From assembly GCA_902768805.1 (NCBI GenBank), contig CACXMX010000014.1, positions 1 through 45,541 on the forward strand: a DNA stretch of 45,541 nt, read 5' to 3'. The stretch comes from Oscillospiraceae bacterium. GTDB taxonomy: Bacteria; Bacillota; Clostridia; Oscillospirales; Oscillospiraceae. Positions 13,738 to 34,722 of the stretch are shown here, piece by piece. The notes below the pieces were generated by a model. That model searched no databases, had not been told where the DNA came from, and saw nothing but the letters and a program-made list of their open reading frames with translations. How positions within the stretch are numbered: position 1 is the stretch's first letter; each line of letters begins with the position of its first letter. The translations under genes were made by a program, and so were the position numbers.

Positions 13738-15354
13738 TCAGATCGGTTCTCCGAAGACCCGCTCGCCGGCCACATAGGCGGCCACGACAGGAATGTCCTT
13801 CAGCGCGAAGGGGTCGGTCTCGAACGGATCGGATCCCAGCACGACGAAATCGGCCAAATACCCCGGGGCGATACGGCCTTTGACGTTCTCCTCGAAGCTT
13901 GAATAGGCTCCGGCGGAGGTGTAGGAGTCCAGTGCCTCCCGAACGGTGAACGCCTCATCGGGCAGATAGGGCCCCATCCGGTCGCGCAGAGTGGTGCGTG
14001 TCACGGCGCACTGGATGCCGGCCATGGCGTTGGGCAGCTCCACGGGGCAGTCCGTGCCGTTGGAAACGGTACAGCCGCCGCGCAGCAGGGTCTTCCAGCT
14101 GTAGCTGCTCGCGGCCCGCTCGCTCCCCACCAGACGCTCCACAATGTGGATGTCGTAGTCGAGAAAGATCGTCTGGGCGTAGATGTGCATACCCATGGCG
14201 ATCAGCCGCTCGAGCTGGTCGGGACGGGTGATCTGGCAGTGGACCACACCGTGGCGGGCGTCGGAGCGGGGATGCTCCGCCTGCGCCTTCTCCACCGCGT
14301 TCAGGATGAGATCCATCGTGGCGTCTCCGATGGTGTGCACCGCTACCTGCATGCCGTTGGCATGGGCGAGGCCGATCATCTCGTTCATCTGTTCCTGCGT
14401 GAAGATCGGGATGCCGCGCGTAGACGGGTCGTCGGCGTAGGGCTCGCTCAGATACGCCGTGCGCGCCCCCAAAGAGCCGTCTCCCAGCATTTTCAGCGGG
14501 CCGATGCGGAAGCGGTCAGTGCCGGCTCCGGTGACGCAGCCCGCTTCCATAAAGCTCCGCAGCCCGTCGGGATCGGTGAAATTGCTCTGCTCGTACACGC
14601 GCACGGTCAGCTCGCCGCTCTCCTCCAGCTCACGGTAGGCCTCGTTCACGGTCTGCCAGGGCACGGATCGGAATACGCAGTAGTCGTCGCTCTGAACGCT
14701 GGTCACACCGTAGCTGTTCAGCGCCCGGCAGGCCAGGCGGATCATGTCCATGATCTCGTCCTTGCCCGGCACGGGGAGATGCTCATAGACCAGCGTCATG
14801 GCGTCGTCGTAGAACAGGCCGTCCGGTTCTCCGGCGCGCAGGCCGATGCGTCCGCCCTCCGGGGAGAGAGTGTCCGCGGTCACGCCGCACAGCTCCAGCG
14901 CTTTGGAGTTCACGGCCATGCAGTGACCGCAGCAGCGCACGATCACCACGGGGACGTCCCGGGAGACCCGGTCCAGATCCCACCGGTCGGGCATGCGCTC
15001 GGCGTCGGAGAAATAGTCCTGATTCCAGCCGCGTCCGCGGATCCACCGGCCCTCGCCGCCGGGCTGCGCCGCGGCGTATTCGCGAAGGTATTCCAGCATG
15101 CCGGCAAGACTGTCGGTATGGGCGGCCAGCTCCGCCTGAGCCAGCGACTGGCCGAAATTCAGAAGGTGCATATGGCTGTCGTTGAATCCGGCGCAGACGA
15201 AGGCACCGTTGAGATCCACCGCCTCGGCGCAGCCCAGAGCGGCGCCGTCGGCATCCGAGCCCGTGAAAAGGAAGCGTCCGTCCTCCACGGCAAAAGCGCT
15301 CACAAGGGGCAGCTCGCCGGTATACACCCGTCCGTTGTAATAAAGAGTACTCAT
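13738..15354 (-). CDS. YtcJ-type amidohydrolase (amidohydrolase_3 family)
   Basis: 538 residues, normal family length. The beta-sandwich part (YYNGRVYTG at the start, KGRIAPGYLADFVVLGSDPF near the end) encloses a metal-dependent TIM barrel with FNDSHMHL (first His pair), the second metal site around LKMLGDGSLGARTA, HTIGDATMD, HCQI and NGTDCPVE (Asp ligand). Members such as N-substituted formamide deformylase hydrolyse amide bonds; specificity cannot be read from sequence. Its ATG overlaps the stop of the symporter gene by four bases (ATGA), so the two are translationally coupled and share the lysine riboswitch. That suggests its substrate enters through the symporter (inference). Confidence 0.9.
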   Translation of the reverse strand: MSTLYYNGRVYTGELPLVSAFAVEDGRFLFTGSDADGAALGCAEAVDLNGAFVCAGFNDSHMHLLNFGQSLAQAELAAHTDSLAGMLEYLREYAAAQPGGEGRWIRGRGWNQDYFSDAERMPDRWDLDRVSRDVPVVIVRCCGHCMAVNSKALELCGVTADTLSPEGGRIGLRAGEPDGLFYDDAMTLVYEHLPVPGKDEIMDMIRLACRALNSYGVTSVQSDDYCVFRSVPWQTVNEAYRELEESGELTVRVYEQSNFTDPDGLRSFMEAGCVTGAGTDRFRIGPLKMLGDGSLGARTAYLSEPYADDPSTRGIPIFTQEQMNEMIGLAHANGMQVAVHTIGDATMDLILNAVEKAQAEHPRSDARHGVVHCQITRPDQLERLIAMGMHIYAQTIFLDYDIHIVERLVGSERAASSYSWKTLLRGGCTVSNGTDCPVELPNAMAGIQCAVTRTTLRDRMGPYLPDEAFTVREALDSYTSAGAYSSFEENVKGRIAPGYLADFVVLGSDPFETDPFALKDIPVVAAYVAGERVFGEPI

Positions 15355-16862
15355 GCGGCGTTTTCTTCCTCGATCTGAACGTCGTCTTCATAGAAGAGAC
15401 GTTCGCCTTCCCGCACCGTGCCGATGCCCATGTAGCGCGCCTTGTAGTCGCGCAGCAGGCGGAAATACTCGCCCGAGAGGATCAGGATCACGAATACGTT
15501 CACAAAGGTGGGGATCGCCGAGGTGATGTCCACCACGGTCCAGATGAAGCCCTGATTGTTGGTCTGCACCAGGTAGATGGTCCACAGGATGCCGGGCAGG
15601 CCGCGCAGAGCGTAGAATACCTTCATCAGCACCGCGACGAAGCGGTTGCCGCTCTGCCCCATGTGGTTGAGGATGGCGATGTAGTAGGTGAACCATCCGC
15701 CGGATGTGGTGACGGTGAAGATCACCATGATCACGGCCAGCAGCACCGAGCCGATCACGCCGAAGCCGGAGGCGAAAGAGTTGAGCGCCAGCGTGCCGCC
15801 GGTCTCACCGCCGGTCCAGCAGCCGGAGAGAACAACGGCCAGACCGGTGATCGTGCACACCACGATCGTGTCGAAGAAGACCTCGAAGGAGCCCCACAGG
15901 CCCTGCTCCACGGGATGGGGAGTGTCGGCGGAGGCGTGGACCATGGGGGAGGTGCCCCAGCCGGCCTCGTTGGAGTAAACGCTCCGGGCCACGCCGGTGC
16001 GGACGATGGAGGCGACGGTGGCGCCGGCGAAGCCGCCGATCACGGCCGTGCCGGTAAAGGCGTCGTGGAAGATCTGCACGAAAGCGGAAGGCACGCGGGT
16101 GATATTGACGGCGATCATTACCAGCCCCATGAGCAGGTAGGCCACGCTCATAAAGGGGACCAGACGGGAGAACTTCTGCGCGATGCCTCTTGTGCCGCCG
16201 GTGGTGGCGATGTAGGTGAGCACGGTGATGACAAAGCCCATCAGGATGATCATGTCGACGTTCATTCCGCCGATGCTCACGCTGCTCACTCCGGTGGCGC
16301 CGGCCAGAACCTGGGCGGCGGTCAGGTTGGAGGAGGTGACGAAGAAGGTGGAGAAGATGCCCGCGCCGAAGATCACTCCGAGGATCTTCCAGGCTCCGCC
16401 CCAGCGGCGCTGGACGCCCAGGCCCTTCTGCATGTAATAGGTCGGGCCGCCGAAGTACTCGCCGTTCTCGTTGCGGCCGCGGTAGTAAACGCCGAGGGTG
16501 ACTTCGACCTGCTTGAGGATCATCCCCAGCAAGGCGCAGATCCACATCCACATCAGGGCGCCGGGGCCGCCGGCCGCCACGGCGGTGGCCACGCCGGCGA
16601 TGTTGCCGAAGCCGACCGTGCCGCCCACGGCGGTGCAGACGGCCTCAAAGGCGCTCAGCTTGCCGGCGCGGTGGGCGTCGGCGCTGTCCTGCACGTCCTT
16701 GTGGAACAGGCTTCCGGCGGTGTGCCGCCAGATCCAGCCGAAGTGGCGGAACTGGAAGAATCCGGAACGGATGGTGAAATACAGGCCCGTGCCGAACATG
16801 AGCACGAGCAGGGGAAGGCCCCAGAGCACGGTGTAGGCCAGCCAGTTTACGAAGTCGATCAT
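15351..16862 (-). CDS. AGCS-family sodium/amino-acid symporter
   Basis: 503 residues from 16862 (GAGAGG upstream); a long upstream in-frame extension crosses the riboswitch terminator and is not coding. About eleven membrane segments; family signatures GGTVGFGNIAGVATAVAAGGPGA (near 84), GPTYYMQKGLG, ARSVYSNEAGWGTSPMVHA and FTVTTSGGWFTYY-like stretches. Known members move alanine or glycine with Na+. Here the leader is a lysine riboswitch, which argues for lysine or a lysine-linked compound, although specificity switching inside this family is not something I can prove from residues. Confidence 0.93.
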   Translation of the reverse strand: MIDFVNWLAYTVLWGLPLLVLMFGTGLYFTIRSGFFQFRHFGWIWRHTAGSLFHKDVQDSADAHRAGKLSAFEAVCTAVGGTVGFGNIAGVATAVAAGGPGALMWMWICALLGMILKQVEVTLGVYYRGRNENGEYFGGPTYYMQKGLGVQRRWGGAWKILGVIFGAGIFSTFFVTSSNLTAAQVLAGATGVSSVSIGGMNVDMIILMGFVITVLTYIATTGGTRGIAQKFSRLVPFMSVAYLLMGLVMIAVNITRVPSAFVQIFHDAFTGTAVIGGFAGATVASIVRTGVARSVYSNEAGWGTSPMVHASADTPHPVEQGLWGSFEVFFDTIVVCTITGLAVVLSGCWTGGETGGTLALNSFASGFGVIGSVLLAVIMVIFTVTTSGGWFTYYIAILNHMGQSGNRFVAVLMKVFYALRGLPGILWTIYLVQTNNQGFIWTVVDITSAIPTFVNVFVILILSGEYFRLLRDYKARYMGIGTVREGERLFYEDDVQIEEENAA

Positions 16863-16961
16863 TTCTTTTCCTCTCTTTCTTTCCCGGCGATTGCCGGTCT
16901 GCGGGTTTCCCGGACCGACCATAAGATTTCGGACCGGACGTTCTCGGCAATGCATCCTTTC

Positions 16962-17002
16962 AGGAAAAGAAAAGAGGAGCAACGACTCGATGCCATTGCT
17001 CC
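16962..17002 (-). terminator. Riboswitch-controlled terminator
   Basis: Minus-strand stem GGAGCAA/TTGCTCC (16976-17002) followed by TCTTTTCTTTTCC. The 5' arm region GGAGCAATGGC overlaps the partner of an alternative antiterminator: GCTATTG near 17019-17025 can pair with CAATGGC. CTATTG also closes the riboswitch P1 with CAATAG near 17181, so the two are exclusive. Confidence 0.8.
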
Positions 17003-17017
17003 CATGATCTCTCATGA

Positions 17018-17190
17018 AACAATAGCTCCTCCGCTTATCCCCGATAAGCGGGAGTGCACCGCCTGTTCGACGGTACCCCAACTCGACAGCCTGCGAAGCC
17101 GCCGGTTTCGGCGAACTTGCCTTTCTCTGTCCTTCACAGCCCTCGCCGGCTCCGGACAGGTACTCATCGCGTTCGCGCCTCTATTGCCGA
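17018..17190 (-). ncRNA. Lysine riboswitch (L box) upstream of AGCS symporter
   Basis: Read on the minus strand the aptamer contains AGAGGCGCG then GATGAGTA (P1-P2 loop E region), CTGTCC pairing with GGACAG, GAAAGGCAAGTTCGCCGAA (junction and P3), TTGGGG, GGTGCACT, and a 9-bp P5 hairpin CCGCTTATC/GATAAGCGG. P1 is closed by CAATAG with CTATTG. These match the L-box core I know from lysC and the Thermotoga maritima element. Lysine binding should stabilise P1, free the downstream terminator and switch the symporter and amidohydrolase off. Confidence 0.85.
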
Positions 17191-17199
17191 TTTTTCTGC

Positions 17200-21689: not shown

Positions 21690-21930
21690 ACAAAAAAAGA
21701 AACCCTTCGCTCCCGATCGTATCGGGACGAAAGGCATGCTTCCGCGGTACCACCCGCATTCGGAACGTGTCGTTCCGCGCTTTTTCCGCGTTAACGGGCG
21801 GACCCGCCGGGGATTGGCCGGAGCTCACGGGCGAACGAAACCGTCCGATGCCGCAGGGCGCTTTCAGCCGCCGACGCCCCTCTCTGCTGCGGTGGATCCG
21901 GTTATTTTCCCGATCGACGCATTATCGGGA
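21690..21930 (-). ncRNA. T-box leader of pheST
   Basis: On the minus strand the leader ends with the T-box GGGTGGTACCGCGG (21742-21755) and an intrinsic terminator (arms about 21705-21717 and 21721-21733, then TTTCTTTTTTT). Upstream lies Stem I with AGAGAGGGGCG and GGCTGAAAGCGCC elements. Two TTC triplets (21833-21835 and 21837-21839) at the expected 3' side are candidate Phe specifiers. Uncharged tRNA-Phe should bind and allow read-through into pheST. Confidence 0.9.
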
Positions 21931-25900: not shown

Positions 25901-26709
25901 ACATGCGCAAGCCGGCGGACGGGATAAGGCGGCGGCAGCTCGCCCCGTATCCACGACACCGTGAGCGCGAAAAACTCGCGCATGGAATAGTGTACGAAGC
26001 CGGAAAGGGAGGAGCGCGCCGGCACCGGGCTGAGCAGGTAATTGCCGAGCTCGCGTCCCGTGCACAGAGCCCGGTAGATGTGAAAATCGTTGGTCACGAT
26101 CCCCACGGAAGAAATGCCGTCTCCCAGCAGCGCGAAGCTGTTGGAGAGGTTTTCCTGCGTTGAGGTCGACCGGTCCTCAATGAGGATCCGGTCCGCGCCG
26201 ATGCCCGCTGCGGTCAGACGCTCGAAGATGCACTGCGCCTCGCTCATGGGCTCGTCCTCTCCCCGGCCGCCGGATGCCACGGCCACCGTATCCGGATTGC
26301 GCCGCAGATATACCGCCGCGGCGTCGATGCGCTCGCGCAGGGATCCGCTGGGAGCGCCGTCCTCGTTCACACGGGCGCCCAGGATCACGATCGCGTCCAG
26401 CCCGTCCTTAGGCGCGGAAAAAGCGGCGGAGAAGACAAAATACTCCACAAAGCAGAAGAAAGCGAAACATACGATCAGCGCGCAGCGCGCCGCCGCCAGC
26501 AGCCATCCGGGAAAAGGGTGCGCCCGCCCGTTTTTCCACGCGCGGCGCCACAGCGCCCAACGGCAGACGCACGCCGCGCCGAGCAAGGCCCACATAAACA
26601 GCAGCGACTGCCCGAAGCGCACGGTGATCCCGCAGACAAGGTAGAAGAGTATGCACGCGATCCCGAAGGCCAGTATCAGGTTGTTGATCACGACGGAGGA
26701 GCGCTTCAT
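25897..26709 (-). CDS. YdcF/ElyC-like DUF218 membrane protein
   Basis: 270 residues behind GGAGA. Three hydrophobic segments (about 8-28, 33-52, 72-96) are followed by a DUF218 domain: AIVILGARVNEDGAPSGSLRERIDAAAVYL (near 108), VASGGRGEDEPMSEA, ILIEDRSTSTQENL and VGIVTNDFHIYRA. This matches SanA/ElyC/YdcF proteins, which act in envelope maintenance and are thought to handle lipid-linked or nucleotide-like substrates, though the reaction is unsettled. The acidic and Ser/Thr motifs of the active fold are present. The gene is divergent from the aro operon. Confidence 0.88.
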   Translation of the reverse strand: MKRSSVVINNLILAFGIACILFYLVCGITVRFGQSLLFMWALLGAACVCRWALWRRAWKNGRAHPFPGWLLAAARCALIVCFAFFCFVEYFVFSAAFSAPKDGLDAIVILGARVNEDGAPSGSLRERIDAAAVYLRRNPDTVAVASGGRGEDEPMSEAQCIFERLTAAGIGADRILIEDRSTSTQENLSNSFALLGDGISSVGIVTNDFHIYRALCTGRELGNYLLSPVPARSSLSGFVHYSMREFFALTVSWIRGELPPPYPVRRLAHV

Positions 26710-26815: not shown

Positions 26816-26844
26816 TTGACAACGCTCCCCGGCGGGTTTATACT
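26816..26844 (+). promoter_or_regulatory. aro operon promoter
   Basis: -35 TTGACA (26816-26821), 17-bp spacer, -10 TATACT (26839-26844). The start point near 26851 leaves a leader of about 170 nt before aroF, occupied by the attenuator. Confidence 0.85.
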
Positions 26845-26874
26845 CCGTATAAAGTTTCATATAAGGTGAATACC

Positions 26875-26922
26875 ATGATTATTGCCCGCTTCTTTAGCTA
26901 TTACTATTACCGTACCGAATGA
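26875..26922 (+). CDS. Aromatic leader peptide controlling the aro operon
   Basis: A 15-codon frame MIIARFFSYYYYRTE, starting at 26875 with AAGGTG seven nt upstream and stopping at 26922. Two Phe codons (26890-26895) and four Tyr codons in a row (TAT TAC TAT TAC, 26899-26910) are far beyond chance and are the classic control codons of ribosome-mediated attenuation. The Tyr codons run into RNA segment 1 of the attenuator. When tyrosyl-tRNA is scarce the ribosome should stall there and allow transcription into aroF-aroQ. The peptide itself probably has no other role. Confidence 0.9.
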   Translation: MIIARFFSYYYYRTE

Positions 26923-27007
26923 CCGGTAGGGTGATTTGTGATGCGTAAAGAAGCCTCATAAAGGCTGTCAAAGACGACACAGATCGCTCTGTGCCGTCTC
27001 TTTTTTT
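26906..27007 (+). promoter_or_regulatory. Transcription attenuator of the aro operon
   Basis: Four mutually exclusive segments are visible. Segment 1 (26906-26916) pairs with segment 2a (26925-26935) over 11 positions with one mismatch. Segment 2 GGGTGATTTGTG (26929-26940) pairs with segment 3 CACAGATCGCTC (26978-26989) over 12 positions, allowing G-U. Segment 3 also forms the terminator with segment 4: AGACG/CGTCT and CACAGA/TCTGTG (26972-26999, loop TCGC, one A-C mismatch), followed by seven T. A ribosome stalled on the Tyr codons masks segment 1, freeing 2 to pair with 3 and preventing termination. Confidence 0.88.
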
Positions 27008-27022
27008 CGGGAGGGTATAAAA

Positions 27023-28024
27023 ATGATCGTAGTACTCAAGAACGGCGTTACCGAGGACAAGCGTGACAGGCTTATCGACTGGCTCAAGGGTCAGGGCCTG
27101 ACGATCCACATCTCCGAGGGACAGTTCCAGACCGTCCTCGGCCTGGTGGGCGACACCACCGCCGTGGACATGGACCTGATCGCCAGTCTGGCCATCGTGG
27201 ATTCGGTCAAGCGGGTGACCGAGCCGTTCAAATGCTGCAACCGCAAGTTCCACCCCGAGGACACCGTGGTGGATGTGAAGGGCGTAAAGATCGGCGCGGG
27301 CAATTTCGTGATGATCGCCGGCCCGTGCTCCGTGGAGTCCGAGGAGCAGATCGTTGGCATCGCCAAGGCCGTAAAGGCCTCCGGCGCGCATATGCTCCGG
27401 GGCGGGGCTTATAAGCCGCGTACCTCTCCCTACGATTTCCAGGGCCTGGCCGCTACGGGGCTCGAGCTGCTGAAGATCGCCCGCGCGGAGACCGGCCTTC
27501 CCATCGTCACGGAGATCATGGGCACCGGAGCCCTGGACCTGTTCATGGACGTGGACGTCATCCAGGTCGGCGCGCGCAACATGCAGAACTTCGATCTGCT
27601 CAAGCAGCTGGGAAAGCTGAACAAGCCCATCCTGCTCAAACGCGGACTGGCCGCCACGCTCAAGGAGCTGCTCATGAGCGCGGAGTACATCATGGCCGGC
27701 GGCAACGAGAACGTGATCCTCTGCGAGCGCGGCATCCGTACATTCGACGACTACACCCGCAACACGCTGGATCTGGCGGCCGTGCCCATGCTTCACGAGC
27801 TGACGCACCTGCCGGTGATCGTCGATCCCAGCCACTCCACGGGCCTTGCCCGAATGGTACGCCCGATGAGCCTCGCCTCCGCGGTGGTGGCCGACGGGCT
27901 GATCATCGAGGTGCACAACGATCCCATGAACGCCCTGTGTGACGGCGCGCAGTCCATCCGTCCCGAGGAATACGACAAACTCCTCAAGGATGTCTACAAA
28001 GTCCGGGAGGTGGCCGTGGGATGA
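27023..28024 (+). CDS. aroF: 3-deoxy-7-phosphoheptulonate (DAHP) synthase
   Basis: 333 residues behind GGGAGGG. An N-terminal ferredoxin-like regulatory domain (about 1-75) precedes the type I-beta TIM barrel: [14 protein letters not shown] (near 97), [74 protein letters not shown]. It condenses PEP and erythrose-4-phosphate, the first shikimate step, and the N-terminal domain is the usual site of Tyr or Phe feedback. First gene of the operon; its stop overlaps the tyrA start (ATGA). Confidence 0.97.
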
Positions 28025-28854
28025 TCGTGGGAGTTCTGGGCCTGGGCCTTATCGGCGGTTCCTTTGCCAAGGTCTATCACGCTGCCGGCCACACGGTGTA
28101 TGCCTGCGAGATCGACCGGTCCATCCTGGACTTCGCCATGATGGACGGCGTCGTCGCCGCCGAGCTCACCGAGGAGAACATCTCCGAATGTGACCTTGTT
28201 CTGCTTGTGGTGCCTCCGGCCGGGATCATCGATTTCGTGCGCCGGATGGCCCCGCATATCGGGCCGCACCCGCTGGTGCTCGACTGCTGCGGTGTCAAGC
28301 GGGAGGTCTGCTCCGCCTGTTTCCCGCTGGCGGAGGAATACGGCTTTACCTTCGTGGGCGGCCATCCCATGGCGGGCACTCAGTACGCCGGCTACCGTTA
28401 CTCGAAGGCGAACATGTTCCACAACGCCCCCATGGTCATCGTGCCCCCGGTCTACGACGACATCCTTTTGCTGGACCGGGTAAAGGAGCTGCTCGCCCCG
28501 GCGGGCTTCGCCCGGGTCTCGGTCACCACGGCGGAGGATCACGACGAGATGATCTGCTTCACCTCGCAGATGATCCACATCCTCTCCAACGCCTATATCA
28601 AAAGCCCCACGGCCCGCGGGCATAAGGGCTTTTCCGCCGGCAGCTACAAGGACATGACCCGCGTGGCGTGGCTGGATCCCAACATGTGGAGCGAGCTGCT
28701 GCTGGACAACCGCGACAATCTTCTTCGGGAGCTGGATTTTTATCTGAACTCCCTGTCTGAATACCGCGCCGCCCTCATCGACAACGACCGCGAGCGGATG
28801 CGCCGGCTCCTGGCCGACGGCCGCCGCTGCAAGGAGGAGGTGGACGGCCGGTGA
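28021..28854 (+). CDS. tyrA: Prephenate dehydrogenase
   Basis: 277 residues starting at 28021 inside the aroF stop (ATGA). Rossmann motif GVLGLGLIGGSFAK, then VPPAGIIDFV, DCCGVKREV, GGHPMAGTQYAGY (catalytic His) and an all-helical C-terminal dimerisation domain (HILSNAYIKSP, GSYKDMTRVAWLDPNMW). Converts prephenate to 4-hydroxyphenylpyruvate with NAD, the tyrosine branch. No ACT domain follows, so feedback would act at aroF or through attenuation. It overlaps aroB by four bases (GTGA). Confidence 0.96.
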   Translation: MIVGVLGLGLIGGSFAKVYHAAGHTVYACEIDRSILDFAMMDGVVAAELTEENISECDLVLLVVPPAGIIDFVRRMAPHIGPHPLVLDCCGVKREVCSACFPLAEEYGFTFVGGHPMAGTQYAGYRYSKANMFHNAPMVIVPPVYDDILLLDRVKELLAPAGFARVSVTTAEDHDEMICFTSQMIHILSNAYIKSPTARGHKGFSAGSYKDMTRVAWLDPNMWSELLLDNRDNLLRELDFYLNSLSEYRAALIDNDRERMRRLLADGRRCKEEVDGR

Positions 28855-29909
28855 GGACTGTCCGCGTCGAAGCGTCGTCCGCCTACGACGTGCTCATCGG
28901 TCCCGGCCTGCTCGGAGAATGCGGAGCGCGGATCGCGAAGGTGATCGCCCCGTGCACAGCCGCCCTGGTCTCGGACAGCAATGTGGCCCCTCTCTACGCC
29001 GCGCGCGTCCGTGAAAGCCTGGAGACGGCGGGCTTCCGTGTGGCTGAATTCCGCTTTCCCGCGGGCGAGCGCTCCAAGAACCTGGAAGTCTGGGCCGAGA
29101 CGGTTTCCTTCCTCGCCGAAAACCGGCTCGGCCGCGGCGATTTCGTCGCGGCGCTGGGCGGGGGCGTCACGGGGGATCTGGCCGGCTTCGCCGCCTCGGC
29201 CTATCAGAGGGGGATCCGCTGCGTGCAGCTGCCCACCACTCTGCTCTCGGCGGTGGATTCCTCCGTGGGCGGGAAAACGGCCGTGGATCTCCCGCAGGGG
29301 AAAAATCTGGTCGGCAGCTTCCACCAGCCCTCTCTGGTGCTGTGCGACACGGACACCCTCGCCACGCTGCCGGACGTACAGCTCCGCTCGGGCTGCGCCG
29401 AGGCGATCAAGTGCGCGGTGCTGTCTTCGGAAGAATTGTTCGCCCGCATGGAGACGGTGCCGATCCCGGATATGCTCGAGGATACGATCACCGCGTGCGT
29501 GGAGTATAAGCGCGGCGTGGTCGCCCGCGACGAGTTCGACACCGGAGAGCGCGCTTTTCTCAATCTGGGCCATACCGTCGGCCACGCCGTGGAAAAGTGC
29601 GGCGGCTATGCTCTCACCCACGGCGAGGCCGTGGCGGTCGGCCTGGCCGTCGTCACCCGGGCCGCCGCGGCGCGCGGGATCTGCTCTCCGCGAGCCGCGG
29701 AGCGGATCGTCGCTCTCCTGGAGAAGACAGGGCTCCCCGTGACGACAGACATCGGGGCGACGGAGCTTTTCGAGGCGGCGCTCTCGGACAAAAAGCGCCG
29801 CGGCGATTCGATCCGGCTGATCCTCCCGGAGGAGATCGGCCGCTGCCGTATAGAAACGGTCCCCGCAGCCGATCTGATCGGCTGGATGCGGGACGGAGGC
29901 GTCCGATGA
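28851..29909 (+). CDS. aroB: 3-dehydroquinate synthase
   Basis: 352 residues from a GTG start at 28851, behind AAGGAGGAGG, overlapping the tyrA stop. NAD site GDFVAALGGGVTGDLAGFAAS (near 98); metal and catalytic residues in SGCAEAIKCAV (Glu), FLNLGHTVGHAVE (His) and THGEAVAVGL (His), plus DKKRRGD. Cyclises DAHP to 3-dehydroquinate, second shikimate step. Full length with no lesion; its stop overlaps the aroA start (ATGA). Confidence 0.97.
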   Translation: MRTVRVEASSAYDVLIGPGLLGECGARIAKVIAPCTAALVSDSNVAPLYAARVRESLETAGFRVAEFRFPAGERSKNLEVWAETVSFLAENRLGRGDFVAALGGGVTGDLAGFAASAYQRGIRCVQLPTTLLSAVDSSVGGKTAVDLPQGKNLVGSFHQPSLVLCDTDTLATLPDVQLRSGCAEAIKCAVLSSEELFARMETVPIPDMLEDTITACVEYKRGVVARDEFDTGERAFLNLGHTVGHAVEKCGGYALTHGEAVAVGLAVVTRAAAARGICSPRAAERIVALLEKTGLPVTTDIGATELFEAALSDKKRRGDSIRLILPEEIGRCRIETVPAADLIGWMRDGGVR

Positions 29910-31102
29910 TCGCCCGGGCCGCGCCGGGGCCGAAAACCGGCCGCGTTCGTCCGCCCTGCTCCAAATCCCAGGCCCATCGGCTGCTGATCTGCGCCGCTTT
30001 GAGCTCCCGCGCGCTCGGCGCCGGCATCCGTCCCCTCGATAACGGAGGCTTCCGTGTGGAGCCTATCCGATCCGTACCCGCCGGAACAGCGCTGCTGCCC
30101 TGCGGCGAAAGCGGTTCCACATTGCGCTTCCTGCTGCCGGTGGTCGGCGTTTTGGGAGCGCGGGCCGTATTCCGCCGGGAAGGCCGTCTCCCCGAGCGGC
30201 CTCTCGCCCCGCTGGACGGGGAACTTTCCCGCCACGGGATGGAGCTCCGGTCCGAGGGAGCGGATCTCCTCTGCTCGGGGACGCTCCGCGCGGGAGCGTA
30301 CACGCTGCCGGGCGACGTCTCCTCGCAGTATATCTCGGGCCTTCTGATGGCCCTGCCCCGCGCCGAAGGAGACAGCACTCTTGCCGTAACCGGGAAGATC
30401 GAGTCCGCCGCCTATATCACCATGACCGAAAACGCCCTGGCTCTGTCGGGGCTCCGCCCGGAGAAAACGCCCGGGGGATACCGGATCGCCGGGGGCTGCG
30501 CCGGCACGCTTCCCGGGCGGCTGCGCGTGGAGGGCGACTGGTCCGGAGCGGCCTTCTTCCTGTGTATCGGGGCGCTGAGCCGTACCGGCGTCACGGTGGA
30601 GGGGATGGACCTCTCCTCCGCCCAGGGAGACCGGGCCGTGCTGGACATCCTGTCCGCTATGGGCGCCCGGATCGACCGGGAGGGAACGTGCGTGACCGTC
30701 CGCCGCGGCGAACTGCGCGGCACGGTCATCGACGCCGCCCCCGTACCGGATCTGATCCCCACGCTCGCCGCGGTCGCCGCGGCTGCGGAGGGAGAGACCC
30801 GCATCATCAACGCCGCGCGGCTGCGCCTCAAGGAGTCCGACCGGCTGTCCGCCACCGCGGAGCTGCTCAGAGCGCTGGGCGGCGAAGCGGAGGAACTGCC
30901 CGACGGGCTGATCATCCGCGGAGGGAAGCCGCTGCGCGGAGGAGCCGCGGATGCCCGCGGCGACCACCGCATCGCCATGGCCGCGGCTGTGGCGGCCTGC
31001 GCCGCCGATGGGGAAGTGACCGTCGGCGGAGGCGAGTGCGTGGCAAAGTCCTATCCGGCCTTCTGGGAGGATTACGCCGCGCTGAAAGGAGAGACCACAT
31101 GA
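29906..31102 (+). CDS. aroA: EPSP synthase with an internal in-frame deletion
   Basis: 398 residues from 29906 (ATGA overlap with aroB). Clear EPSPS motifs: KSQAHRLLICAAL (substrate Lys-Ser and Arg), CGESGSTLRFLLPV, LPGDVSSQYISGLLMALP, LRLKESDRLSATAELLRALGG and ARGDHRIAMAAAVAA. Between AALSS (residue 34) and RALGAGIR (residue 35) the stretch that normally carries the S-x-D-x-x-AT segment is absent. About 24-27 residues are missing, which also accounts for the short length (usually about 420-430). The frame is kept. The missing part forms a beta-alpha unit near the active-site cleft, so activity is doubtful unless this is an assembly error. Transfers enolpyruvyl from PEP to shikimate-3-phosphate. 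Confidence 0.93.
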   Translation: MIARAAPGPKTGRVRPPCSKSQAHRLLICAALSSRALGAGIRPLDNGGFRVEPIRSVPAGTALLPCGESGSTLRFLLPVVGVLGARAVFRREGRLPERPLAPLDGELSRHGMELRSEGADLLCSGTLRAGAYTLPGDVSSQYISGLLMALPRAEGDSTLAVTGKIESAAYITMTENALALSGLRPEKTPGGYRIAGGCAGTLPGRLRVEGDWSGAAFFLCIGALSRTGVTVEGMDLSSAQGDRAVLDILSAMGARIDREGTCVTVRRGELRGTVIDAAPVPDLIPTLAAVAAAAEGETRIINAARLRLKESDRLSATAELLRALGGEAEELPDGLIIRGGKPLRGGAADARGDHRIAMAAAVAACAADGEVTVGGGECVAKSYPAFWEDYAALKGETT

Positions 31103-32160
31103 GCAGCACATACGGCAGAGATCTGCGCATCACCATTTTCGGCCAGTCCCACGCGCCGGCCATCGGCGTCACGATCGAGGGACTCCGGTCCGGCCTGCGC
31201 GTCGATACGGAGGCGCTGGAGAGCTTCCTGGCCCGCCGGGCCCCGGGCCGTGCGGCCTACGCCACCGCGCGCCGGGAGACCGACAAACCGGAATTCCTCT
31301 GCGGGATCGTCAACGGCGTCACCACCGGCACGCCCGTCACCGCCGTCATACGAAACACCGACGCGCGCAGCGGAGATTACGCGGCCCTTCTGCACAAGCC
31401 CCGCCCCGGTCACGCGGACTACACCGGCTGGGTGAAATACGGCGACGCGGGGGATTTTGCCGGGGGAGGACACTTCTCCGGAAGAATGACGGCCCCGCTG
31501 TGCGTCGCGGGCGGCATCTGTCTGCAGCTCCTTGAGCGGGAGGGGATCCGGGTGTGGTCTCACATCGCCTCCATCGGCTCCGTTAAGGACGAGGGAGAAT
31601 GGCCGTCCGCCGGTGCAGCGGGAAAGGAATTTCCCACGCTGTCCGAGGAGCGGGAGGCGGAGATGCGCAAAGCCATCGCCGAGGCCCGCGCCGCGGGAGA
31701 CAGTCTCGGCGGCGTGATCGAGTGCGCCGTGGTCGGCGTTCCCGCCGGACTGGGAGACCCGATGTTCGACGGCATGGAAAACCGCCTGGCCGCCGTGCTT
31801 TTCGGCATCCCGGCCGTGAAGGGCGTGGAATTCGGAGCGGGCTTCGCGGCCGCTGCCATGAGAGGCAGCGAGAACAACGACGCCTTTGCCGTGGAGAACG
31901 GCCGTGTCGTCACCCGCACCAACCACAGCGGAGGGATCCTGGGCGGCATCACCACGGGCATGCCTCTGGAGTTCGCCGTGGCGGTAAAGCCCACGCCCTC
32001 CATAGCCAAAACGCAGGAGACCGTAGACCTGCGAACAATGGAGCCGGCCGAGATCACCGTGGGCGGCCGGCACGACCCCTGTATCGTACCCCGGGCGGTA
32101 CCCTGTGTGGAGGCGGCGGCCGCGCTGGCGGTATACGACGCCCTGCTGGCGGACCGCTGA
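31099..32160 (+). CDS. aroC: Chorismate synthase
   Basis: 353 residues from 31099 (GAAAGGAGAG upstream; ATGA overlap with aroA). Family signatures: STYGRDLRITIFGQSHAPAIGVTIEG at the start, GHADYTGWVKYGDAGDFAGGGHFSGRMTAP (near 97), RGSENNDAF and NHSGGILGGITTGMPL, and RHDPCIVPRAVPCVEAA near the end. Uses reduced FMN to convert EPSP to chorismate. Full length, no lesion. It ends 20 bp before pheA. Confidence 0.97.
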   Translation: MSSTYGRDLRITIFGQSHAPAIGVTIEGLRSGLRVDTEALESFLARRAPGRAAYATARRETDKPEFLCGIVNGVTTGTPVTAVIRNTDARSGDYAALLHKPRPGHADYTGWVKYGDAGDFAGGGHFSGRMTAPLCVAGGICLQLLEREGIRVWSHIASIGSVKDEGEWPSAGAAGKEFPTLSEEREAEMRKAIAEARAAGDSLGGVIECAVVGVPAGLGDPMFDGMENRLAAVLFGIPAVKGVEFGAGFAAAAMRGSENNDAFAVENGRVVTRTNHSGGILGGITTGMPLEFAVAVKPTPSIAKTQETVDLRTMEPAEITVGGRHDPCIVPRAVPCVEAAAALAVYDALLADR

Positions 32161-32180
32161 ACCGTAAGGAGGACTCATCC

Positions 32181-33074
32181 ATGGATCTGAACGATTACCG
32201 GCTGAAGATCGACGCCATCGACAAAGAGCTGCTGCGCCTGTTTTCCGAGCGGATGGACGTGGCGTCGGAGATCGCGCGCTTCAAGGCAGAGAACGGCCTG
32301 CCCGTGCTGGACTCCGCACGGGAGCGGGAGAAGCTGCTCGCCGTGGCGGACGCCGTCGCCCCGGAGCTGCGGGATTATGCCGTGAACCTGTACATGCTGC
32401 TTTTCGAGCTGAGCCGCTGCCATCAGAACCGCGCCCTGGGCAGACGGTCGGAGCTGCCCGAGAAGATCGCCAAGGCCCTCGAGGAGACGCCCCGGCTCTT
32501 TCCCGACCGGGCCGCGGTCGCCTGCTGCGGCGAGGAGGGCTCGCCCTCTCAGCTGGCCTGCGAGCGCCTCTTCAAACAGCCCAACGAGTTTTTCTTTGAC
32601 AGCTACGAGGCGGTGTTTTCCGCTATCGAGAAGGGTCTGTGCCGCTACGGCGTCCTCCCGCTGGAGAACACCGCTGCGGGCAGCGTCAACGCGGTGTACG
32701 ACCTGATGATGCGCTGCGATTTCAACATCGTCCGTTCCGTGCGCATGATGGACGAGGTCAACGGCGGCTTCACCCGCTATATCTGCATCGCCCGCGAACT
32801 GGAGATCTACCCCGGGGCGGACCGCACCAGCCTGATGATGGTGCTGCCCCACAAACCGGGCTCTCTGTACAAGGTCCTCTCGCGCATTTACGCTTTGGGC
32901 ATGAATCTGATCAAGCTGGAGAGCCGGCCGCTGCCCGAGCGGAATTTTGAGTTCATGTTCTATTTCGATGTGGACAATTCCGTATACTCTCCCTCGTTCC
33001 TGCAGCTGATGGGCGAACTGGAGGACATCTGCGAGGAGTACGACTACCTCGGCAGCTACAGCGAGGTGGTGTGA
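32181..33074 (+). CDS. pheA: Chorismate mutase / prephenate dehydratase lacking the central dehydratase segment
   Basis: 297 residues behind AAGGAGG. Residues 1-85 are an AroQ-type chorismate mutase (LNDYRLKIDAIDKELLRLFSERM). Residues 111-190 start a prephenate dehydratase (GVLPLENTAAGSVNAVYDLM). Residues 197-205 give the TRF-like FTRYICIAR, then an ACT domain (PHKPGSLYKVLSRIYALG, KLESRPLPERNFEFMFYFD). At residues 188-192 the protein jumps from IVRSVRM to DEVNGGFTRY. The normal 75-80 residues between them, including the H-x-x-A-L-x-Q-C motif and the LYGL region, are missing in frame. Mutase activity should survive; dehydratase activity should not. Usual P-protein length is 360-390. Confidence 0.93.
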   Translation: MDLNDYRLKIDAIDKELLRLFSERMDVASEIARFKAENGLPVLDSAREREKLLAVADAVAPELRDYAVNLYMLLFELSRCHQNRALGRRSELPEKIAKALEETPRLFPDRAAVACCGEEGSPSQLACERLFKQPNEFFFDSYEAVFSAIEKGLCRYGVLPLENTAAGSVNAVYDLMMRCDFNIVRSVRMMDEVNGGFTRYICIARELEIYPGADRTSLMMVLPHKPGSLYKVLSRIYALGMNLIKLESRPLPERNFEFMFYFDVDNSVYSPSFLQLMGELEDICEEYDYLGSYSEVV

Positions 33075-34297
33075 TGCTTCGCTGCGGTCTGCTGGGCGAA
33101 AAGCTCGGCCACAGCTACTCTCCGGCCATCCATGCCCTGCTGGGGGATTATGAGTACCGCCTGTACGAGAAGGCGCCCGGCGAGGTGGAGGAGTTCCTGC
33201 GCCGCGGGGATTTCGACGGCCTGAACGTCACGATCCCCTACAAAAAAACCGTTCTGCCCCTGTGCGCAGAGCTCTCCGCCGGAGCGCGCTCCATCGGCAG
33301 CGTGAACACCCTTGTCCGCCGTGCCGACGGTACGCTCTTCGGCGACAATACCGACGCCTTCGGTTTCCGGTACCTGCTTTCCTCCGCCGGGATCGATCCG
33401 AAAGGGGCGAAGGCGCTGGTGCTCGGCAGCGGAGGCGCCTCGGTCATGGCCGTATACGTGCTCAAAACACTCGGCGCCGCGAGCGTCACGGTGATCTCCC
33501 GGACGGGGGAGAACAACTACTCCAATCTCGGCCGCCACGCCGACGCGGACCTGATCGTCAACACCACGCCGGTGGGCATGTATCCGGACAACGGCGCCGC
33601 GGCGGTGGATCTCACGTGTTTTCCGCACTGCCGGGGCGTGGCCGACGTGGTGTACAACCCCGCGCGCACGGCACTTCTCCTGCAGGCGGAGGAGCTGGGC
33701 ATTCCCCGGGGCGGCGGCCTGGGCATGCTGACGGCTCAGGCCGTGCGGGCGAGCGAACTCTTTCAGGGCAGGACGATCGATCCGGCCCTCATCGGCAGCA
33801 TCACGGATAAGCTCCGCCGCGAGAGCGGGAACATCATCCTCATCGGCATGCCGGGCTGCGGCAAGACCACCGTCGCCGAACGCCTGAGCGCGCTCACCGG
33901 CCGGCCGGTGCTGGATGCCGACGCGCGCATCGCCGAAACGGCGGGAAAGACCATCCCGGAGATCTTTGCCGAGAGCGGGGAAGAGGGCTTCCGCGCTCTG
34001 GAGACGAAGGTCCTTGCCGAACTCGGAAAGCGGAGCGGAGCGATCATCGCCACCGGCGGCGGCTGCGTCACCCGTCCGGAGAACTATCCGCTGCTGCACC
34101 AGAACGGCACGCTTTTCTGGCTTCGGCGTGACACGGCGCTCCTGCCCCGCGACGGACGTCCACTGTCTCAAAACGCCGACCTTTCCGAGATGTACGAAAA
34201 AAGAGCGCCGCTCTACGCGCGCTTTGCCGACGCCGTTATCGAAAACGACCGCACGGCGGACGACGCGGCGCGGGACATTCTGGGGGCATATACATGA
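33074..34297 (+). CDS. aroE-aroK: Shikimate dehydrogenase - shikimate kinase fusion
   Basis: 407 residues from the ATG at 33074 (TGATG overlap with pheA); a GTG three bases earlier is the alternative. Residues 1-245 are AroE: LGHSYSPAIH, catalytic Lys57 in NVTIPYKK, Asp94 in GDNTDAFGF, NADP loop VLGSGGASVMAV. Residues 253-407 are AroK: P-loop GMPGCGKTT (258), DADARI (shikimate Asp), GFRALETKVL, ATGGGCV and the RPLSQ lid. Two consecutive shikimate steps, reduction of dehydroshikimate and 3-phosphorylation of shikimate, in one chain. Both active sites look intact. Confidence 0.95.
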   Translation: MLRCGLLGEKLGHSYSPAIHALLGDYEYRLYEKAPGEVEEFLRRGDFDGLNVTIPYKKTVLPLCAELSAGARSIGSVNTLVRRADGTLFGDNTDAFGFRYLLSSAGIDPKGAKALVLGSGGASVMAVYVLKTLGAASVTVISRTGENNYSNLGRHADADLIVNTTPVGMYPDNGAAAVDLTCFPHCRGVADVVYNPARTALLLQAEELGIPRGGGLGMLTAQAVRASELFQGRTIDPALIGSITDKLRRESGNIILIGMPGCGKTTVAERLSALTGRPVLDADARIAETAGKTIPEIFAESGEEGFRALETKVLAELGKRSGAIIATGGGCVTRPENYPLLHQNGTLFWLRRDTALLPRDGRPLSQNADLSEMYEKRAPLYARFADAVIENDRTADDAARDILGAYT

Positions 34298-34722
34298 AGC
34301 TTTTGATCATCAACGGACCCAATCTGAACCTGCTGGGCGTGCGGGAGCCGGATATCTACGGGAAAAAGGATTTCGCCGCTCTCGAGGCTTTTATCCGGGA
34401 GGTCTGCGCCGCGGAGGGGATAGACTGCGAGCTGTTCCAGTCGAATCACGAGGGGGCCATCGTGGACAAGATCCAGTCGGCCCTGGGCCGCTTCGACGGC
34501 ATCGTCATCAATCCCGCGGCCTATACCCACACCAGCGTGGCGATCCTCGACGCGCTCAAGGCCGTGGCGCTGCCGGCCGTGGAGGTGCATCTCTCGGACG
34601 TCAGCGCCCGGGAGGAGTTCCGGCACATCTCCTATGCGGGCTTGGCCTGCGAGAAGACCTTTATGGGCCTGGGCTTCGACGGCTACAAAGAAGCGATCCT
34701 GTATCTGAAGCGCCGCGATTGA
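34294..34722 (+). CDS. aroQ: Type II 3-dehydroquinate dehydratase
   Basis: 142 residues from 34294 (ATGA overlap with the aroE-aroK stop). Motifs: INGPNLNLLGVREPDIYG (catalytic Arg and Tyr), FQSNHEGAIVDKIQ, INPAAYTHTSVAI, VEVHLSDVSAREEFRH. A dodecameric enzyme that dehydrates 3-dehydroquinate to 3-dehydroshikimate, third shikimate step. Last gene of the operon; it completes the chorismate pathway encoded here. Confidence 0.97.
   Translation: MKLLIINGPNLNLLGVREPDIYGKKDFAALEAFIREVCAAEGIDCELFQSNHEGAIVDKIQSALGRFDGIVINPAAYTHTSVAILDALKAVALPAVEVHLSDVSAREEFRHISYAGLACEKTFMGLGFDGYKEAILYLKRRD

Follow-up and report, generated by a model that had tools for sequence, protein, structure and literature searches.

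How is transcription of the main aromatic operon controlled in an Oscillospiraceae bacterium? In the usual account, leader-peptide attenuation belongs to the Proteobacteria, and the Firmicutes rely on T-boxes or TRAP. In the window, by which we mean the whole 45,541-nucleotide stretch analysed here (contig CACXMX010000014.1, assembly GCA_902768805.1), a first-pass annotation had described a complete trp-style attenuator with a leader peptide keyed to tyrosine in front of the aro operon, a regulatory choice that it considered odd. Based on the sequence and on comparison with relatives, which together offer a promoter, a leader ORF, conserved aromatic codons, three alternative pairings and a terminator, we believe that ribosome-mediated attenuation of the trp/pheA kind very probably governs transcription of the whole shikimate, tyrosine and phenylalanine operon. 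The parts of the locus are as follows.

26816-26844, forward strand: sigma-70-type promoter, TTGACA-17-TATACT, 11 of 12 consensus positions, spacer of 17.
26863-26869, forward strand: Shine-Dalgarno sequence AAGGTGA of the leader peptide, from the sequence.
26875-26922, forward strand: predicted leader peptide MIIARFFSYYYYRTE, ATG at 26875, 15 codons and TGA, from the sequence and homologous leaders.
26899-26910, forward strand: putative control codons TAT TAC TAT TAC (four Tyr), from the fold model with the ribosome on each codon.
26887-26916, forward strand: segment 1, containing the Phe and Tyr codons; partner 26924-26955, duplex -31.8 kcal/mol.
26926-26947, forward strand: segment 2, the antiterminator side; partner 26973-26991, duplex -20.9 kcal/mol, core conserved in an alignment of close leaders (A1).
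26973-26991, forward strand: segment 3, common to antiterminator and terminator, from the helix search, the 2:3 alignment and duplex folding.
26972-27007, forward strand: intrinsic terminator 3:4, stem about 26972-26999, seven T at 27001-27007, from sequence, covariation and folding.
27023-28024, forward strand: aroF, DAHP synthase with a ferredoxin-like domain, from family matches; Shine-Dalgarno sequence GGGAGGG.
28021-34722, forward strand: tyrA, aroB, aroA, aroC, pheA, aroE fused to shikimate kinase, and aroQ, from family matches; those for tyrA, pheA and aroE/K are clear yet fall under the curated cut-offs.

The leader sits between a divergent minus-strand gene, which starts at 26709, and the aroF ATG at 27023. 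Most of what the first-pass annotation had read here holds. The near-consensus promoter is present, just upstream of the point at which that annotation began the attenuator, and between it and the first gene lies a short ORF with a Shine-Dalgarno sequence, predicted to be translated, which reads M I I A R F F S Y Y Y Y R T E stop and so has the FF and YYYY described earlier. The terminator with its seven T is where it should be, ahead of the first gene, the Tyr codons fall within segment 1, and the pairings 1:2, 2:3 and 3:4 compete with one another; duplex folding places 3:4 at 26973-26998. For 1:2, the pairing itself stands but its extent does not, since the folded duplex is longer than the 11 positions first noted.

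None of the leader families among the covariance models of Rfam 15, the T-box RF00230 included, matched positions 26816-27022 up to E 5, and a known Rfam leader family was thereby ruled out as the identity of the window leader. This search also bears on the idea that the leader is a tRNA-sensing T-box of unusual form. T-boxes do occur in the neighbourhood: one precedes pheST, as the first-pass annotation had said (21720-21926, minus strand, 78.5 bits, E 1.9e-15, below the Rfam gathering score of 93; pheS and pheT were confirmed), and others were found at TrpB-like genes (9 of 15 sources) and at some aroF loci of the phylum (4 of 20). However, the search that detects the pheST T-box finds none at the leader, which is only about 170 nt long and contains an ORF, and we regard this idea as extremely improbable. 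Elsewhere in the window, a lysine riboswitch (17015-17191, minus strand, 99.2 bits) heads an ORF at 15354-17081, residues 87-546 of which match the AgcS amino-acid carrier family.

If the peptide matters, its aromatic codons should recur in relatives. We took the 110 best-scoring aroF loci (30 and 80, from two collections that overlap, for example in L005 and L040, whose contigs are equally long and which share an identical leader) and excluded L080, the start of which is cut off. By a simple rule, at least five Tyr or Phe per ten codons in a short upstream ORF, 88 of the remaining 109 loci have such a cluster, compared with 7.9% of dinucleotide shuffles, and FY ranks first among all 190 amino-acid pairs for clusters in these upstream regions. 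With inner starts permitted, a Tyr/Phe-rich leader is present at 94 of the 109 loci; 92 of these 94 have a terminator between leader and aroF, and the same number have a Shine-Dalgarno-like site, although the choice of start favoured such sites. Among the 15 loci that failed, L034, L037 and L067 look like weaker versions of the leader because a covariance model of the leader still matches them. Once leaders more than 85% alike had been removed, 82 of 92 were kept for counts, and 80 of these 82 clusters contain both Tyr and Phe (314 Tyr, 276 Phe and 4 Trp residues). Carriers include two cultured organisms, Sporobacter termitidis DSM 10068 (L097) and Eubacterium pyruvativorans i6 (L093), so the attenuator can be tested. 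The same kind of leader, with a close aroF, occurs in two metagenome-assembled genomes labelled Treponema and Bacteroidales (L056 and L060), which points either to doubtful labels or binning or to transfer.

Spread beyond the near relatives was judged without relying on the covariance model of the leader (R1). At E 0.01 or better R1 matches 61 of 98 sources, 24 of which had served to train it, and it matches 32 of 394 genomes of the order; it reaches mainly near relatives and therefore understates the spread, so ORF and duplex tests were used class-wide. Under a strict test (ATG, a Shine-Dalgarno-like site and at least six Tyr or Phe in ten codons), 29 of the 57 class loci with enough sequence pass, against 3 of 1140 shuffles; the underlying sample of 60 regions (59 aroF, one TrpB-like) was hand-picked across families among the matches listed, some families twice, and is not random. 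From the wider phylum, 40 similarly chosen regions gave seven passes against 1 of 800 shuffles. Thus what had been called an odd choice is not peculiar to one species: Tyr/Phe-rich leaders at aroF are common in the class. Of the 28 class loci that fail the strict test, 20 were scanned, and they contain no T-box and no match to any Rfam family at E 0.01; several of the other eight, such as L180, L203 and L205, resemble weaker leaders. In the phylum, where 33 loci fail, a T-box was found in four of the 20 scanned. In several distant leaders, L197, L205, L207 and L227 among them, the first Tyr/Phe cluster is followed by another (GFYFSAGYF-like), which suggests that control codons are arranged differently there.

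The leader is not confined to aroF. Of 30 R1 loci kept, 24 have aroF as the next gene and five a TrpB-like gene (G093, G117 and G152, of one genus, together with G132 and G159, making three genera); at L138 no ORF was found. The G159 protein matches NCBIfam trpB_rel, and the other four proteins are 83-87% identical to it. The leaders at this gene read AKYWRYFNFTF (G093 and G117), AKYWRYFSFTF (G152), FIWWRFT (G132) and AKYWYFYFT (G159), so that all five carry Trp codons, compared with five of the 94 aroF leaders. When the regions upstream of 15 TrpB-like genes were scanned for RNA families, a T-box was found in nine, including that of the window's own genome (L171), and in none of the five leader-bearing loci. 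Nine of the ten other loci are thus T-box loci, and the tenth, L150 (G162), has no T-box and no shown R1 match and holds FFGFWCGYWF. No aroF match was obtained in any of the six genomes concerned, the five with a leader at the TrpB-like gene and G162, four of which are at least 90% complete, whereas that query finds a match in 106 of 149 relatives. At two loci, L142 and L143, the leader is followed by another short ORF that contains two Trp (MRIILYWRWRVRAVNK), about 132-77 nt before the TrpB-like gene. In the window's genome, the T-box at the TrpB-like gene (G000:C26, L171:263-516, minus strand) scores 79.2 bits, again short of the gathering score (93).

The T-box and the attenuator seem to trade places on one gene, and the window's genome seems to rely on a leader peptide at aro but on T-boxes at pheST and the TrpB-like gene. 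A tentative reading, which we consider quite possible without favouring it, is that a single lineage of aromatic attenuators, old in the Clostridia, can be moved and re-coded: it would carry Tyr and Phe codons on aroF and, in genomes without aroF, would have gained Trp codons at the TrpB-like gene where relatives keep a T-box. If true, a tRNA-binding sensor would have been exchanged in nature for a ribosome-reading one, and specificity would have changed one codon at a time.

Attenuation of the trp/pheA kind further depends on exclusive pairings, and an alignment of homologous leaders had been set beforehand as the test of the first-pass annotation. In alignment A1, of 24 close leaders, the three longest helices found by a helix search are 3:4, 2:3 and 1:2. 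The terminator stem stands out: 94.6% of its cells are paired and seven of ten pairs show changes on both sides, a level reached by none of 500 shuffles. The 2:3 helix is 92.3% paired, as opposed to 27-54% when one strand is slid. Its share of paired cells is nevertheless reached by 20 of 500 shuffles, and that of 1:2 by 15 of 500; for pair types the figures are 403 and 112 of 500, respectively. With so little variation, covariation of 2:3 and 1:2 in the close group is not clearly above shuffles. Thus the alignment bore out the Tyr/Phe frame and the two-sided changes in 3:4, but 2:3 and 1:2 hardly covary there and their conservation shows mainly when each leader's own pairing is compared with swapped ones, the test that we used because the close alignment is too invariant.

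In that comparison, the own 2:3 duplex averages -18.1 kcal/mol against -13.1 kcal/mol for swapped partners and is better in 80 of 82 leaders, and the own 1:2 duplex averages -13.8 kcal/mol against -10.8 kcal/mol and is better in 70 of 82; none of 20,000 permutations equalled either result. An antiterminator exclusive with the terminator is hence supported by both the helix search and the swaps. The wider set comprised 34 leaders from the class and phylum (36 were found, two of them without a terminator). Here the segment sequences differ and the 2:3 pairing is retained, the own duplex being better in 33 of 34; 1:2 does not stand out in this set (17 of 34; 986 of 20,000 permutations), so that a 1:2 hairpin including or abutting the control codons was found among the 82 nearer leaders and is not significant class-wide. 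Within segment 2 of A1, a core like ATTTGTGNTGC is nearly fixed (columns 58-70), and TTTGTGNTGC is present upstream in 29 of the 82 leaders, or 49 in a looser form; this recurrence perhaps exceeds what pairing alone needs.

Such recurrence is what one would expect if the element were instead an RNA switch bound by a protein or ligand, with segment 2 and the terminator as the sensor and the Tyr/Phe frame as a by-product of a U-rich pairing strand. Codon-level evidence does little against this reading. We compared the last eight codons of the cluster in 35 independent leader pairs; 118 codons differ. In 32 of them the amino acid is unchanged, and among the remaining 86 there are 34 that exchange Tyr and Phe. 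In the leader frame 27% of the differences are synonymous, against 10% in frame +1 and 26% in frame +2, and changes do not concentrate at third codon positions (59 of 165, p 0.28). We consequently dropped the synonymous share as proof of the frame, as frame +2 is as high, and left the absence of stops uncounted, as it arises by construction; the substitutions fit a Tyr-or-Phe constraint, and on their own they argue only weakly for coding. Stronger support for a frame that is read comes from the clusters themselves, set against shuffles, and from the Trp codons at the TrpB-like gene. Given that about half of the class loci combine an ATG, a Shine-Dalgarno-like site and the aromatic cluster where shuffles almost never do, that Tyr-Phe exchanges make up so many of the non-synonymous changes, that all five leaders at the TrpB-like gene have Trp codons, that distant leaders differ in their segments but keep the 2:3 pairing, and that no Rfam family matches the leader up to E 5, we consider a protein- or ligand-bound switch unlikely and a translated leader peptide the better account.

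We propose the following model for the attenuator. When charged tRNA-Tyr is plentiful, or translation is absent, 1:2 would pair, or alternatively a ribosome at the stop codon would mask part of segment 2; in either case 3:4 would form and transcription would end near 27005. With uncharged tRNA-Tyr, the ribosome would instead pause at the four Tyr codons and cover segment 1, leaving segment 2 free to pair with segment 3, and the operon would be read. In most relatives the Tyr and Phe codons are interleaved, and therefore a shortage of either should open the operon. The stop codon is placed within or past segment 2 in 54 of the 82 leaders, and in 78 a ribosome that has reached the stop covers part of segment 2 or has already moved beyond it.

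Folding of the 82 leaders with a ribosome that covers RNA as far as 12 nt from the first base of the A-site codon is consistent with this model. Before segment 4 is made, upstream RNA holds segment 3 with a mean probability of 0.41 when no ribosome is present and 0.42 when one is at the stop, compared with 0.67 when it occupies the last Tyr/Phe codon; hold in this last state exceeds the no-ribosome state in 73 of 82 leaders and the stop state in 64. At full equilibrium with the complete hairpin and the 12-nt footprint, 17 of the 82 leaders switch, the window leader included, and when the last Tyr/Phe codon is occupied own terminators switch in 13 of 82 cases against 14 of 410 when swapped. Leaders that do not switch at equilibrium, among them those of Sporobacter termitidis and Eubacterium pyruvativorans, which keep the terminator form in this model, would need kinetic folding.

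For the window leader, the modelled terminator probability with the 12-nt footprint is 1.0 without a ribosome and 0.98-0.99 on the two Phe codons. It drops to at most 0.06 across the four Tyr codons, is about 0 on the Arg, Thr and Glu codons that follow, and reaches 0.93 at the stop. Readthrough is thus predicted beyond the Tyr run too, which means that folding by itself cannot distinguish Tyr as the signal, and stalling-dependent readthrough at the control codons is a prediction of the model. Even so, with the Phe codons leaving the terminator intact, we infer that the window leader senses Tyr and that its Phe pair lies outside the control stretch, in keeping with the keying first suggested for it. 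Would the switch respond, or might all the elements be present and yet set a mostly fixed level of readthrough with a weak amino-acid response? The stop state is borderline: before segment 4, segment 3 is still held there (0.85, no fall), and with a 10-nt footprint the terminator reaches only 0.39 at the stop, after 0.6 at the first Tyr and at most 0.01 at the other Tyr codons. However, terminator probability falls and recovers sharply with the 12-nt footprint and with one of 14 nt (0.0 at the first Tyr, 0.99 at the stop), and the leader is conserved in relatives. A fixed level is therefore very unlikely in our view, and a responsive attenuator remains the reading that we prefer.

The window's PheA (32178-33071, forward strand) lacks an inner portion of the prephenate dehydratase domain, the Pfam PDT model matching only positions 1-77 of 181. 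In relatives such as G003, G013 and G020 the PDT halves are about 80-85 codons further apart in a single open frame; the window protein reflects either a deletion or a collapse in the assembly. The window's own genome has another, weak PDT-like match at G000:C16:19317-20051. In this single case, the shortening may accompany Tyr-only control of the leader.

The first-pass annotation had also held that no counterpart is described, which is too strong. The figure legend of Stav et al., 2019 (PMC6429828) lists two short uORF candidates with Phe and Tyr at shikimate genes, drawn from five genomes, one of them Clostridium novyi; as far as the legend's description goes they are like the window leader in having a Phe/Tyr uORF at such genes, and they may overlap with the aro leader family. 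In the passages found in PMC8632094, uORFC-13-1 precedes aroF of Acholeplasma together with a terminator, contains one or more Phe codons, and is represented by 24 sequences from Acholeplasma and environmental sources; by that description it shares the aroF uORF and terminator with the window leader, and it names Phe with no mention of a Tyr run. Ribosome-mediated attenuation is described elsewhere in the Firmicutes too, in Bacilli and for other amino acids and genes: passages of PMC2965389 report His leader peptides at hisS and hisZ, and those of PMC5794164 a Leu-rich attenuator at ilv-leu of Staphylococcus aureus, with genetic support. As of 2005, the relevant passage of PMC1262725 placed classical attenuation at no aminoacyl-tRNA-synthetase gene of Firmicutes. 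Among the literature matches listed by our full-text search, none describes attenuation of aro genes in Clostridia. If many gut and rumen Clostridia control their main aromatic operon through a conserved Tyr/Phe attenuator, the annotation and prediction of these pathways would change, and the leaders provide about eighty different natural versions of a single switch to study.

The trp, pheA, pheST and his leaders of enterobacteria combine codons for the end product, the 1:2, 2:3 and 3:4 logic, and a terminator before the first gene. The window leader has the same logic of peptide and pairings, with Tyr and Phe as the end-product codons, but differs in belonging to another phylum, in matching no Rfam leader family and in heading a whole shikimate operon; the Clostridia leaders also differ in that the stop codon so often lies inside or beyond segment 2. 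With the T-boxes at pheST and TrpB-like genes of the same order the leader would share its task, sensing an aromatic amino acid through tRNA, although a T-box senses the tRNA directly and has no leader peptide. Judged from comparative sequence analysis and modelling, the aro leader is very probably a widespread and new representative of classical ribosome-mediated attenuation.
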